Positions 1 to 4,438 of a stretch of DNA of 64,000 nucleotides are shown here, one piece after another (position 1 is the first letter of the stretch; each line of letters begins with the position of its first letter). The stretch covers positions 1 through 64,000 of the forward strand of contig RFTJ01000002.1 of assembly GCA_009923495.1 (NCBI GenBank), in the 5' to 3' direction. The stretch comes from Actinomycetota bacterium (GTDB taxonomy: Bacteria; Actinomycetota; Actinomycetes; S36-B12; UBA5976). The notes beneath the pieces were generated by a model. That model was not told where the DNA came from. It did not search any database and saw nothing but the letters and a program-made list of their open reading frames with translations. A program made the translations under genes and the position numbers.

Positions 1-78
1 CAAGGAGCCGCGGATTTGGCCGTGCCATTGGATGTCTCAGTTGGAGTGGGCAGGAGTTGGTCCGACGCTGGCCATTGA
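1..78 (+). CDS. polA: DNA polymerase I, C-terminal end (partial)
   Basis: The window opens inside a reading frame of 25 codons ending in TGA. The peptide contains VPLDVSVGVGRSW and ends in AGH, which matches from memory the extreme C-terminus of actinobacterial DNA polymerase I, the repair and Okazaki-fragment polymerase. In Mycobacterium and Streptomyces polA lies just upstream of rpsA on the same strand, and rpsA follows here after about 3 kb, which supports the call. Everything else in the protein lies outside the window. The 257 bases after its stop show no gene and no convincing terminator. Confidence 0.8.
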   Translation, partial: QGAADLAVPLDVSVGVGRSWSDAGH

Positions 79-335
79 TTTTGGATCCTTTATCAGAATA
101 AGATACTTCAACCCCTTGGGAGAGCCGTTGTTAATCGCAAACTAGCTTTAGAGCCAATTTTCTTGCTTCATATCTAGATCAATGCCAGGTAATCAAGGTT
201 CGTTGTCTTAAAAGATTCTGAGCCGAAATCCTAGACATCCCGAGTCCCCCAGAGTAAATTTATGCAGGTAGCGGCATATAGCCGATTACAGTGCTCAACT
301 CACTTAGCAGGATAAGTGAAAATTTCGGAGGAAAA

Positions 336-647
336 ATGATTTGCAAAAACTGCGGTTCTACCATTCAGCAGGGACTATCTTGCTCGAATTGCGGAGCAAG
401 CGTAATTACTGCCTCTAGGCAGATGCCAGTTGCGTCAGGTAATACTTTGTCAACTGTGGCAATTGTTCTGGGTATCGTTGCGGTTTTTCTTGTTCCCATT
501 CTTTTCGGCGGCATCGGCATTGTTTTAGCTTTTGTTGCCAAATCAAAGGGTGAACAGAGGGCCGGAGTTGCCGTTACTGTTTCAATTGTAGGAACCTTAG
601 TCGGTCTGCTCTTCGGTGCAATTGTAGGAGCTACTCTCTTCGGGTAG
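336..647 (+). CDS. Zinc-ribbon protein with two membrane segments (DUF4190-like)
   Basis: 103-residue protein of unknown function. The N-terminus is a zinc ribbon with two CxxC pairs (CKNC and CSNC, about residues 3-18), then a short polar linker, then two hydrophobic stretches (about 38-63 and 75-102) joined by a short basic loop (KSKGEQR). This resembles the DUF4190 architecture, a tail-anchored hairpin in the membrane with a cytosolic zinc ribbon. The start was chosen for the strong Shine-Dalgarno CGGAGG 3-4 bases before ATG; an in-frame ATG 45 bases upstream lacks one. It is the first gene of a four-gene cassette, two members of which carry zinc ribbons. No enzymatic motif is visible. Confidence 0.7.
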   Translation: MICKNCGSTIQQGLSCSNCGASVITASRQMPVASGNTLSTVAIVLGIVAVFLVPILFGGIGIVLAFVAKSKGEQRAGVAVTVSIVGTLVGLLFGAIVGATLFG

Positions 648-793
648 CAGGCTCTAGCCGGCCTTTCGGTAAGACTATGAAAGAGTTTGACCCAAAAGTG
701 GTAGAGGAATTTTAACGAAATCGGCAAAATGTCTGCCTGCTAATGAATAATACTTAACAGCAATAATTTCTGTTCATCAGAGAAGGAATCTTA

Positions 794-1957
794 ATGGGAC
801 TTATCAAATCAACAGTTAGCTCCATAGGTGGGACCCTCTCAGACCAGTGGAAAGATTTTTTGACGGTTCCGCAAGGCATTTCTTCCACTGCTGCATTGTT
901 CCCGGCAGTTCGCAGCGGGACTAACTCAGGTAGAGGGTCAAATACCCAAGCATCTCAGGCCGTTATCACTAATGGGTCACAAATCGTTGTCCCTGAAGGG
1001 TATGGCCTCTTGTTATTTCAGGAAGGCGAGCTCACCGCGGTAACGACTGAGCCGGGAGGCTACACCTGGAACACTGAAGACATTAATTCCCAGTCAATTT
1101 TCGCTGGTAATTCCGCCAGTTCATCTTTGATAAAGCAGTCTTGGGAAAGGTTCAAATTTGGTGGCCGACCAGGTTCTCAGCAGTTGGCGATCTTTGTTTC
1201 GCTAAAGGAATTGCCAAATAATAAGTTCGGCACACAATCTGAGATTTACTGGGATGACGCATATTTCAATGCTCAAGTTGGCGCGTTAACTCACGGAACC
1301 TACAGCATGACAATTGTTGACCCAGTTACTTTCGTTAAGCAGTTTGTTCCTGCGAACTATCTCCAAGCTCAGGACGTTTTCGACTTTACGGACATTTCGA
1401 ACGCTCCAGCAAATCAATTGTTCGCTGAGGTTGTCGGCTCTTTGTCCGCCGCTTTTAGTCTGTATTCAAACGACAGCGGTCGCGAAAATCGAATCACAAA
1501 GATCCAGCAGGACTCTATTGGCTTTGCCAAATCACTTTCGCAGGCGGTTGAAGATGCCTACGCATGGAGAAGTACTCGAGGACTTGAGATCTCAAAAGTA
1601 ACAATCGTTGGCATTGAATACGATAGTGATACCAAGGAATTGCTCAAGACGGTCCAGCGTGCGGATGCACTATCAGGATCGAGGGGCAGTGCGAATCTGC
1701 AGGCCTCTGTCGCTGAGGGAATCCAATCAGCAGGACAGCAGGGGGGCAGCGACGGAATTCTGGGCATTGGCCTTGCCGCTGGCTCCATCGGAGTTGGCGC
1801 ATTGATGCAGACTGGAACACCAACGACAACTACGCCAAATCAAAACGAACAGGATTTGGTCGCGAATTTAGAAAAACTAAAGCGGGCTCTTGAATCCGGA
1901 CTAATTACACAGGAAGACTACGATGCCGCGAAAGCAAAAGCACTCGGTCTGGCATAG
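794..1957 (+). CDS. SPFH-domain protein with C-terminal SHOCT motif (YdjI-like)
   Basis: 387 residues. About residues 60-290 resemble the SPFH/virion-core-like family of Bacillus YdjI: an early 'VPEGYGLLLFQEGEL' strand pair, a KFGG segment, then alternating beta strands and a long helix. Residues 300-345 are Gly/Ser/Thr-rich linker. About residues 353-385 form a SHOCT motif (LEKLKRALESGLIT...YDAAKAKAL), a short helical C-terminal module. YdjI relatives usually end in a zinc ribbon; here that module appears to be a separate gene immediately downstream. SPFH proteins assemble into membrane-associated rings and scaffold other proteins. This one has no obvious transmembrane segment. The start has a Shine-Dalgarno (AGAAGGA) 6 bases upstream. 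The family assignment is by motif recognition, not alignment. Confidence 0.7.
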   Translation: MGLIKSTVSSIGGTLSDQWKDFLTVPQGISSTAALFPAVRSGTNSGRGSNTQASQAVITNGSQIVVPEGYGLLLFQEGELTAVTTEPGGYTWNTEDINSQSIFAGNSASSSLIKQSWERFKFGGRPGSQQLAIFVSLKELPNNKFGTQSEIYWDDAYFNAQVGALTHGTYSMTIVDPVTFVKQFVPANYLQAQDVFDFTDISNAPANQLFAEVVGSLSAAFSLYSNDSGRENRITKIQQDSIGFAKSLSQAVEDAYAWRSTRGLEISKVTIVGIEYDSDTKELLKTVQRADALSGSRGSANLQASVAEGIQSAGQQGGSDGILGIGLAAGSIGVGALMQTGTPTTTTPNQNEQDLVANLEKLKRALESGLITQEDYDAAKAKALGLA

Positions 1958-1975
1958 TGATTTTAGGGAATTGAA

Positions 1976-2233
1976 TTGAAATCAATTGATTGCGCACGGT
2001 GCGGAAGTAACGAGCTGACAGAAATTGAAGGCTTTCTTGTGTGCAATTACTGTAGATCTAAATTTGTCCCCGAATCCAGCGATTTACCTCCAATCGAAAC
2101 AAACATTGAACTCAATGCCGACGTACAGAGACTTTTAGACATGTGTGAGAAAGATCCAGTAAACAGGCATCGTTATGCAAGTCTGATTCTTGATATTGAT
2201 CCGACTAACCAAATCGCACGACGGTACTTCTAA
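1976..2233 (+). CDS. Small zinc-ribbon protein
   Basis: 85 residues starting at TTG, with AGGGAA 5 bases upstream; no ATG or GTG gives the intact ribbon. Residues 6-26 form a zinc ribbon with two CxxC pairs (CARC and CNYC). The rest is an acidic helical tail (LLDMCEKDPVNRHRYASLILDIDPTN) resembling a tetratricopeptide-like helical pair. It lies 18 bases after the SPFH gene and 15 bases before the YbjQ-like gene, so co-transcription is likely. It may supply in trans the zinc ribbon that YdjI-type SPFH proteins usually carry at their own C-terminus. Function unknown. Confidence 0.6.
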   Translation: MKSIDCARCGSNELTEIEGFLVCNYCRSKFVPESSDLPPIETNIELNADVQRLLDMCEKDPVNRHRYASLILDIDPTNQIARRYF

Positions 2234-2248
2234 GAGAAAGGTAATGAA

Positions 2249-2845
2249 ATGAAAGCAAGGGATATTGCTAGACAGTATGGAATTGATGGTTCCTTATTTG
2301 AACGGTGGCTAGCTAGTTCTAACCACAATTACACGCAAGGTGCTTTTGGTGGACTCGTAGTACCCGACGAATCCGTTGAAAGTGTTGTAGCTGACTTCAA
2401 TGCTCAATACGAAGCGGAAATGAACAGATTGTCCGCTCAGCAAGCAAAGGATGAAGCCGCTGCAAAAGAAAAGCAGCAGGCACTAGCAGGAATTTTGATT
2501 ACTTCAGGTTACAGCTTTGATGGCTACACAATTACTCGCTACTCTGGCTACATATCCGGCGACGATGTGGTGCAGGTTGACCGTGGCACCGTTGGATGGT
2601 TTTCTAAAGGAACGAATGTCGGTGCTACCCTGATGGAGTCACTCTCGGTAATCCGCCGAAATGCCCTAACGGAGTTAAAGGAAGCTGCGTATGCGCTCGG
2701 GTGCAATGCAGTGATTGGCGTCGATTTTGATTACTTAAATCTTGAACCGGAGACTGCAAACGCTCAAGGTGGCACTACATATTTACCTTATGTATTCGGT
2801 GTGACTGCAAACGGCAACGCAGTCATTATTGAGAAAAATAATTAA
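2249..2845 (+). CDS. YbjQ/UPF0145-domain protein with N-terminal extension
   Basis: 198 residues. The C-terminal half (about 85-195) matches the YbjQ (UPF0145) fold: GYSFDGYTITRYSGYISG, then an R.NAL.ELKEAAYALGCNAVIGV core and a closing VTANGNAVII strand. The N-terminal 55 residues form a separate small domain of unknown type, followed by a charged Ala/Lys/Gln helix (55-80) likely to be coiled coil. YbjQ proteins are pentamer-forming and often called heavy-metal-binding, but their role is not established. Shine-Dalgarno GAAAGG lies about 7 bases before ATG. It is the last gene of the cassette. The 273 bases after it hold only the rpsA promoter and leader. Confidence 0.7.
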   Translation: MKARDIARQYGIDGSLFERWLASSNHNYTQGAFGGLVVPDESVESVVADFNAQYEAEMNRLSAQQAKDEAAAKEKQQALAGILITSGYSFDGYTITRYSGYISGDDVVQVDRGTVGWFSKGTNVGATLMESLSVIRRNALTELKEAAYALGCNAVIGVDFDYLNLEPETANAQGGTTYLPYVFGVTANGNAVIIEKNN

Positions 2846-2968
2846 CGCCACACTCAGTATTAGTAACCAAGCAAGAGAGTAGATCCTCGGTTTTAGCTGG
2901 TTTATCGCTACAAGCTTTGCAATTTAACCGTGAATTTTGGCAATGAGTCTTGGGCAAACCACCCAATA

Positions 2969-2997
2969 TTGACCAACTCCTGCACCCTCTCTATCCT
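2969..2997 (+). promoter_or_regulatory. Likely rpsA promoter (sigma-70/SigA type)
   Basis: TTGACC and TATCCT are separated by exactly 17 bases, close to the housekeeping consensus on both sides. The predicted transcript start is near base 3004, giving an untranslated leader of about 115 bases before rpsA. Unlike many genes here, this promoter therefore makes a leadered message. Confidence 0.6.
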
Positions 2998-3118: not shown

Positions 3119-4438
3119 ATGACTGTCATTTCTGACAAGCCAAACTCAATCACTGTAAATGATTTCGCATCAGCCGAAGATTTCATGGCTGCAATCGAAT
3201 CAACAATCAAGCCTTTCAATGATGGCGACATCGTTGAAGGCATCATCGTAAAAGTAGATCGTGATGAAGTCCTACTAGATATCGGTTACAAGACCGAAGG
3301 CATCATTCCATCACGCGAACTATCGATTAAGCACGATATCGATCCAAACCAAATCGTAAAGGTTGGCGATCGCGTTGAAGCTTTAGTCCTTCAGAAAGAA
3401 GATAAAGAAGGACGCCTTATTCTTTCCAAGAAGCGTGCGCAGTACGAACGCGCTTGGGGCGACATCGAAAAGGTCAAGGAAGAAGATGGCGTTGTGCTCG
3501 GCACCGTCATTGAGGTCGTCAAGGGCGGCCTAATCATGGACATCGGTCTGCGCGGCTTCTTGCCAGCGTCGCTCGTTGAAATGCGTCGCGTTCGCGACCT
3601 AGGTCCATACCTTGGCAAGCAGATTGAAGCCAAAATCATCGAACTCGACAAGAACCGCAACAATGTTGTGTTGTCTCGTCGCGCATTCCTTGAAGCATCG
3701 CAGAGCGAAGTTCGTCACGGCTTCCTTAATCAACTTGAAAAGGGTCAGATCCGCAAGGGTGTTGTCTCGAGCATCGTTAACTTCGGTGCCTTTGTTGATC
3801 TTGGTGGCGTAGACGGCCTAGTCCACGTTTCCGAACTTTCATGGGAGCACGTCGATCACCCAGCCAAGGTTGTTGAAGTTGGCCAAGAAGTAACTGTTGA
3901 GGTTCTCGAAGTTGATTTCGAGCGCGAGCGCGTATCGCTATCGCTTAAGTCAACTCAGGAAGATCCATGGCAGCACTTTGCTCGTACCCACCAGTTGGGT
4001 CAGGTTGTGCCAGGTGAAGTTACCAAGCTGGTTCCATTCGGTGCCTTCATCCGCGTACTATCAATCCGTCAGGCAAATGACGATGTTGATACCGAAGCAG
4101 TCGACTCATTCGATGCATCGCTTTACGGCATGAGTATCTATGACGAAAACGGTAACTACATCTACCCAGAAGGCTTCGATCCAGAAACCAACGAATGGTT
4201 GCCGGGTCATGAAGAGCAGAAGGCTGAATGGGAGCGTCAGTACGCTGAAGCTCACGCTAAGTGGGAAGCTCACAAGGCTGCGGTTTCCGAAACCAAGAAG
4301 GCCGATGCCGAAGCTGATGCAGCTGCTCAGGCTGAAAACCCAACTTCATTTAGCTCGGACACACCAGTCGAAACCGGACTGGCTGCCGACGAAACTTTGC
4401 AGGCTCTCAAGGATCAGCTGTCTGCTGACGAAGCATAA
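3119..4438 (+). CDS. rpsA: 30S ribosomal protein S1, fourth S1 domain truncated
   Basis: 439 residues; actinobacterial S1 is normally about 480-500. S1 delivers mRNA to the 30S ribosomal subunit through repeated OB-fold RNA-binding domains. Domains 1 (about 33-105), 2 (122-188) and 3 (207-277) are complete. Domain 4 begins normally (GQVVPGEVTKLVPFGAFIRV, 294-313) but jumps at once to LSIRQAND, which normally lies after its last strand. Roughly 40-45 residues (three strands of the OB fold) are missing, in frame. The conserved tail after the domain (YDENGNYIYPEGFDPETNEW) and an Ala/Glu/Lys-rich end are present. ATG was chosen by alignment to the family N-terminus; a GAGG lies about 10 bases upstream. 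A terminator follows. Confidence 0.95.
   Translation: MTVISDKPNSITVNDFASAEDFMAAIESTIKPFNDGDIVEGIIVKVDRDEVLLDIGYKTEGIIPSRELSIKHDIDPNQIVKVGDRVEALVLQKEDKEGRLILSKKRAQYERAWGDIEKVKEEDGVVLGTVIEVVKGGLIMDIGLRGFLPASLVEMRRVRDLGPYLGKQIEAKIIELDKNRNNVVLSRRAFLEASQSEVRHGFLNQLEKGQIRKGVVSSIVNFGAFVDLGGVDGLVHVSELSWEHVDHPAKVVEVGQEVTVEVLEVDFERERVSLSLKSTQEDPWQHFARTHQLGQVVPGEVTKLVPFGAFIRVLSIRQANDDVDTEAVDSFDASLYGMSIYDENGNYIYPEGFDPETNEWLPGHEEQKAEWERQYAEAHAKWEAHKAAVSETKKADAEADAAAQAENPTSFSSDTPVETGLAADETLQALKDQLSADEA

Follow-up and report, generated by a model that had tools for sequence, protein, structure and literature searches.

The first kilobases of the window, by which we mean the whole analysed stretch of 64,000 nucleotides (64 kb), raise the question of what four genes are doing between polA and rpsA: whether they belong together, how they came to stand there and what their products might do. 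The window is the start of a contig in a draft genome of 1.45 Mb that is 97% complete. The four genes of the earlier note were all intact open reading frames (336-647, 794-1957, 1976-2233 and 2249-2845). The features of the locus are as follows.

1-96 (+), 3' end of polA, the last 32 codons; the frame-1 translation ends with VPLDVSVGVGRSWSDAGH and a stop, and the contig begins here
97-2960 (+), approximate extent of a species-specific insertion; 15 congeners have 141-200 bp here, gene-free
336-647 (+), ZR1, one zinc ribbon (CxxC...CxxC) and two hydrophobic membrane stretches (by hydropathy, in windows that begin at residues 32-53 and 75-85)
794-1957 (+), SPFH (Band_7_1) protein, YdjI-type, with C-terminal SHOCT and no transmembrane segment (Pfam, Foldseek, hydropathy)
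956-1357 (+), Pfam-matched part of the SPFH domain, residues 55-188 (PF13421, 34.3 bits, cut-off 24)
1868-1945 (+), SHOCT domain, residues 359-384 (PF09851, 29.4 bits, cut-off 27)
1976-2233 (+), ZR2, a C4 zinc ribbon (CxxC...CxxC) with a conserved TPR-like helical tail; TTG start
2249-2845 (+), YbjQ protein with a predicted MerR/RacA/BldC-like N-terminal domain, a helical linker and a C-terminal YbjQ domain
2249-2413 (+), predicted MerR-like N-terminal domain of the YbjQ protein, residues 1-55 (pLDDT ~95-97; Foldseek 5i44, 6ama, 6amk)
2492-2746 (+), YbjQ_1 domain, residues 82-166 (PF01906, 37.3 bits, cut-off 23; profile match to 1y2i, E 1e-7)
2969-2997 (+), native rpsA promoter, TTGACC-17-TATCCT, with similar elements in congener leaders; retained 3' of the insertion
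3119-4438 (+), rpsA, the native neighbour, its fourth S1 domain lacking 46 residues

The polA end at the contig edge matched the PolA C-termini of congeners at 58-83%. The naming of polA as the cassette's neighbour in the earlier note therefore held for its last 32 codons but not for a full gene, the remainder of which is absent from the assembly. The distance from the polA stop to the rpsA ATG was 141-200 bp in 15 congeners, gene-free and with a conserved rpsA leader, so that in the studied species an insert of about 2.85 kb separates polA from the rpsA promoter; this gene-order comparison agrees with the earlier view that the two genes are normally close and are separated here by an insert. 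The cassette was found in none of the 22 congeners searched, and no SPFH or YbjQ gene was found in these 22 or in 14 family members. One genome of the same order carried an SPFH gene 61% identical to that of the cassette, adjoining a YdjG-like double-ribbon membrane protein. The G+C contents of ZR2 (0.415) and YbjQ (0.459), against a gene mean of 0.50, are consistent with acquisition. The studied species has thus gained SPFH, ZR2 and YbjQ between polA and rpsA.

A 19-nt inverted repeat (17/19 matching) at 44-62 and 2971-2989 flanks the insertion, with one arm within the polA 3' end and the other within the rpsA promoter spacer (0 in 60 shuffles). Compared with aligned congeners, rpsA itself carries a clean in-frame 138-nt deletion near 4058, in the middle of the fourth S1 domain, which may be genuine or may reflect a collapse of similar S1 repeats during assembly.

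All four genes lie on the forward strand, with gaps of 18 nt between SPFH and ZR2 and 15 nt between ZR2 and YbjQ; ZR1 lies 146 nt 5' of SPFH. By spacing, SPFH, ZR2 and YbjQ look like one operon. Promoter scanning of the locus gave scores no better than those of shuffles, and the terminator scan returned five hits against 2.9 expected. Shine-Dalgarno sites, earlier noted at all four starts, were present at ZR1 (GGAGG) and SPFH (AAGGA), but the site was moderate at YbjQ (AAGG) and weak at ZR2 (AGG). The rpsA site was GAGG, and a match of at least 5 nt was found in 8/57 ORFs of the window.

The second gene was correctly described earlier as an SPFH protein ending in SHOCT, both Pfam profiles lying above cut-off. 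The label "YdjI-type" rests on the PF13421 match and on the YdjG-like and TPM neighbours of same-family genes in Bacillota. The structure model was poor (pLDDT 62), and its Foldseek matches were to HflK/C, stomatin, flotillin, prohibitin and MVP (major vault protein) with probability 0.98-1.00, which supports an SPFH fold; a PDB search using the SPFH profile gave no sequence match. According to PMC3581485, the domain that most often accompanies SHOCT is SPFH (PF13421 with PF09851), and SHOCT formed no oligomers in its single published test; the SPFH-SHOCT proteins there have the same architecture as the one studied, and the passages on them do not describe ZR2 or YbjQ neighbours.

The ribbons of ZR1 and ZR2 both fell under every Pfam cut-off. 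ZR2 was recognisable by its four Cys, invariant across 21 homologues, and by the tail motif LLxKCxxDPxNxxRYAxLILDIDPxNxEAxxYL. For ZR1 the DUF4190 profile scored 19.5 bits, under the cut-off of 35, and no homologue was found at any related locus, with weak partial matches at most in 60 relatives.

When 84,980 species genomes were scanned with the YbjQ protein, 58 loci emerged. In 39/49 loci a ZR2 homologue adjoined YbjQ, with both genes on one strand and no more than 65 nt apart. The order was ZR2-YbjQ at 34 loci, one interrupted gene included, and YbjQ came first at six. This core spans Bacillota, Actinomycetota, Chloroflexota, Pseudomonadota and others, and is present in an archaeal MAG too. 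An SPFH gene of the same family stood in the ZR2-YbjQ cluster at no fewer than 10 loci besides the studied one, in Actinomycetota and Bacillota: Terrabacter, Arthrobacter, an Actinomycetales MAG, Specibacter, Bifidobacterium, Raoultibacter, strain D16-34, two lactobacilli (a partial SPFH ORF in one of them being counted) and a Firmicutes MAG. It lay 5' of ZR2-YbjQ at some of these and 3' at others; the order of genes 2-4 seen in the window was found in Terrabacter, Arthrobacter, the Actinomycetales MAG, Specibacter and lactobacilli. When 527 neighbours were clustered, YbjQ, ZR2 and SPFH alone recurred in at least three loci, and the SPFH-adjacent label required several changes on the tree. The earlier note had proposed that its four families should be found together in other genomes. 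For SPFH, zinc ribbon and YbjQ this was borne out, the three being co-located in 10 other loci in two gene orders, but ZR1 was found with them nowhere; a four-gene unit was ruled out by the lack of ZR1 homologues at related loci, and ZR1 probably lies outside the conserved module. Genes 2-4, by contrast, form a conserved, sporadically distributed module with ZR2-YbjQ as its core and a YdjI-type SPFH protein as the usual third member.

Variants were seen at single loci. At one (L016), genes for SPFH, two long zinc-ribbon proteins, ZR2 and YbjQ follow one another in a row, and another (L042) carries, 5' of YbjQ, a Band_7_1 protein of a different kind that has zinc ribbons. This second Band_7_1 type contains several zinc ribbons and occurs beside YbjQ at L042 (3797-5632) and near the YdjI-type SPFH at L129 (4974-6809, reverse strand). 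In Specibacter cremeus (L026, 1387-4026) the YbjQ gene is apparently split by an opposite-strand ORF of 585 aa, in the manner of an insertion. In several Bacillota (L039, L040, L041, L045 and L047), ZR2 lies 3' of YbjQ, and it has a C-terminal extension beginning GCYVATAVYGSYDCPQVW, which gave no Pfam family match in the one member scanned and which may be of the CFI-box type.

The three genes were also linked at the level of whole genomes. SPFH profile searches were made in 47 genomes with YbjQ. The 39 that were ZR2-positive (among them L034, in which ZR2 runs off the contig end) gave 30 strong matches, eight weak matches and one genome with none; a match was thus present in 38/39, against 0/8 of the ZR2-negative genomes. 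Fisher tests of ZR2 against SPFH gave 3e-8 when any match was counted and 8e-5 when strong matches alone were, or 4e-5 and 0.006 with five Micrococcaceae taken as one event. Other SPFH families may account for the weak matches. Four Micrococcaceae with YbjQ alone (L012, L017, L019, L024) form one clade, the sister of which has an SPFH-ZR2-YbjQ locus, and SPFH is absent genome-wide from all four. A decayed 3' stub of ZR2 just 5' of the intact YbjQ gave a tblastn match in L017, L019 and L024 and was faintly readable in L012. Together with the sister locus, the stubs indicate that ZR2 and SPFH were lost and YbjQ was kept; the joint loss is suggestive rather than proof, because a single deletion could remove both. 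Scans of 395 genomes of the class found SPFH in 9/395 and the studied YbjQ in 1/395, too rarely for their adjacency to be chance. In Actinobacteria, SPFH was present in 7/13 YbjQ-bearing genomes and in 8/394 sampled class genomes without YbjQ (p = 3e-8). Distances correlated between ZR2 and YbjQ (r 0.50, p 0.006) and weakly between SPFH and YbjQ (r 0.37, p 0.10), and co-evolution of the whole cassette was rejected on account of the weak SPFH value.

SPFH genes away from ZR2-YbjQ usually adjoin a YdjG-like protein (two ribbons and a transmembrane segment) and, in Bacillota, often a TPM-domain protein as well. SPFH, YdjG and TPM types are also the genes that make up the ydj operon of B. subtilis (PMC11237479), and experiments in B. 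subtilis have shown that membrane localisation of YdjI needs YdjG/H and that YdjI is needed for PspA at the membrane (PMC8581546). The cassette resembles pspA-ydjGHI of B. subtilis in that a YdjI-type SPFH protein that has no membrane anchor of its own is encoded with zinc-ribbon proteins. It differs in having neither a TPM gene nor a double-ribbon transmembrane protein, with ZR2 and YbjQ instead, and in carrying SHOCT at the SPFH C-terminus where YdjI has zinc ribbons. It is also like the PSP-associated Band-7 operons, in which Band-7 occurs with zinc ribbons, TPM or SHOCT and is proposed to assemble membrane complexes (PMC11237479); YbjQ, however, is unmentioned there. No PspA above cut-off was found in the studied genome at its 97% completeness (best 19.4 bits against 33.9), and a PspA system was rejected for this genome. 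The tie to pspA-linked ydj genes of Bacillus drawn in the earlier note was thus upheld as far as the SPFH family and its YdjG-like and TPM neighbours elsewhere are concerned, but not in its PspA part.

The reading that we tentatively prefer is that the module is a YdjI-type SPFH scaffold, its usual partners replaced by ZR2-YbjQ, which would assemble or protect membrane-associated complexes. The soluble SPFH-SHOCT protein would assemble on the membrane's cytoplasmic face as a ring or cage, as other SPFH proteins do. ZR2, which pairs a single zinc ribbon with a short TPR-like hairpin, may serve as an adaptor that clamps this assembly to a YbjQ oligomer (the YbjQ-family PDB entries 1y2i, 1vr4 and 2gtc have five chains each), and the MerR-like N-terminal domains of YbjQ would project on long helices as binding heads. 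ZR2-YbjQ would fill the place of YdjG (ribbons and transmembrane segment) and YdjH (TPM) in Bacillus-type SPFH operons, and the complexes would be assembled or protected under envelope stress. This last step, a role in envelope-complex assembly or stress, is likely on the analogy of YdjI, though less certain than the others; direct support for the envelope or metal stress role suggested earlier was not found. Membrane anchoring would need a further partner, for which ZR1 is a candidate in the studied genome only. Against a scaffold stand the missing or weakly matched SPFH in 9/39 ZR2-positive genomes, the lack of a transmembrane segment in SPFH and the non-recurrence of ZR1, as do the weak SPFH-YbjQ distance correlation, the poor SPFH model and the SHOCT domain's failure to oligomerise in its published test. 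The membrane-scaffold idea of the earlier note is nevertheless plausible.

An unlikely alternative is metal handling, with YbjQ binding a heavy metal, the zinc ribbon passing or sensing it and SPFH merely organising the set at the membrane. The Pfam label of YbjQ is "Putative heavy-metal-binding", and C152 of YbjQ is invariant, as are the four Cys of ZR2. The label is putative, however, the other invariant residues of YbjQ are mostly atypical as metal ligands (some acidic ones aside), and the recurrent neighbours of the module include neither a metal transporter nor a metal regulator.

Regulation is slightly less probable again. Here the MerR-like domain of YbjQ would bind DNA with the help of the TFIIB-like zinc ribbon, and ZR2-YbjQ would control SPFH or envelope genes. 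In the YbjQ model, a confidently predicted N-terminal domain is followed by a long helix and then the YbjQ domain. By Foldseek, the first of these resembled the DNA-binding parts of RacA and BldC and, less closely, those of SoxR and CueR (probability mostly 0.94-1.00; for 5i44, 6ama and 6amk 0.96-1.00, with 2.0-2.5 A over 46-56 columns), but the E values were weak (0.1-0.4), there was no sequence match and no target gene recurs among the neighbours. The domain is acidic in the studied protein (4 K/R, 8 D/E) and slightly negative in net charge across the family, which makes protein binding likelier than DNA binding. An IF2_N identity was set aside, as it was not among the listed Foldseek matches, which favoured the MerR/RacA/BldC type. 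These matches also suggest that the fold is not novel, contrary to the earlier note; the domain is widespread, being conserved in most of the 58 loci, and is predicted to be of a known type. Its fusion to YbjQ corresponds to no named family in Pfam or NCBIfam. The C-terminal domain is like YbjQ / UPF0145 / DUF74 (PF01906) in sequence and fold, with structural matches to 1y2i (E 6e-6), 1vr4 and 3qkb; the studied branch differs in its extra N-terminal domain, predicted to be MerR-like, and helical linker, a GCNAVIGVDFDY core with the invariant Cys and the genetic tie to ZR2.

An anti-phage or other defence module would account for the patchy distribution and the insertion in a single species, and the sporadic occurrence (1/395 class genomes, yet Bacillota, Chloroflexota, Pseudomonadota and an archaeal MAG) fits it; still, it is rather improbable. 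PADLOC gave no match for three of the proteins and a partial one for ZR1 (E 0.017), a negative result on which a defence identity was rejected. No effector domain and no recurrent defence neighbours were found. Plasmid or phage carriage was likewise rejected, no match being found on plasmids or phages and eight relatives in 2.9 million viral contigs. Accidental adjacency, in which unrelated genes landed in a tolerant intergenic gap, holds for the non-recurrent ZR1, 146 bp from SPFH, but is refuted for genes 2-4 by their recurrence in the same order elsewhere and is very improbable overall.

The component families of the module are known, and the SPFH-ZR2-YbjQ combination is an undescribed variant of YdjI-type SPFH/zinc-ribbon systems. 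No description of the module was found in the open-access literature, where mentions of YbjQ were incidental and no YbjQ-mentioning paper was on SPFH by title. This, with the recurrence in unrelated bacteria, makes an overlooked membrane-linked system likely. Somewhat more tentatively than the scaffold itself, ZR2-YbjQ can be put forward as an undescribed, phylum-spanning system, a zinc-ribbon/TPR adaptor with a YbjQ oligomer bearing MerR-like heads, that would dock on YdjI-type SPFH rings and replace PspA-YdjGH as a separate membrane-stress apparatus. YbjQ (UPF0145/DUF74) is widespread and has solved structures, and the tight link of one of its branches to a zinc-ribbon adaptor and YdjI-type SPFH proteins offers it a testable context, that of a membrane scaffold. 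The module also suggests that YdjI-type SPFH proteins may have partners beyond YdjG, YdjH and PspA, which bears on the role of bacterial SPFH rings. Within the YbjQ family of the studied protein, a Chloroflexota member (L008, 5959-6810) has an extra C-terminal zinc finger (Zn_ribbon_GRF, 31.5 bits).
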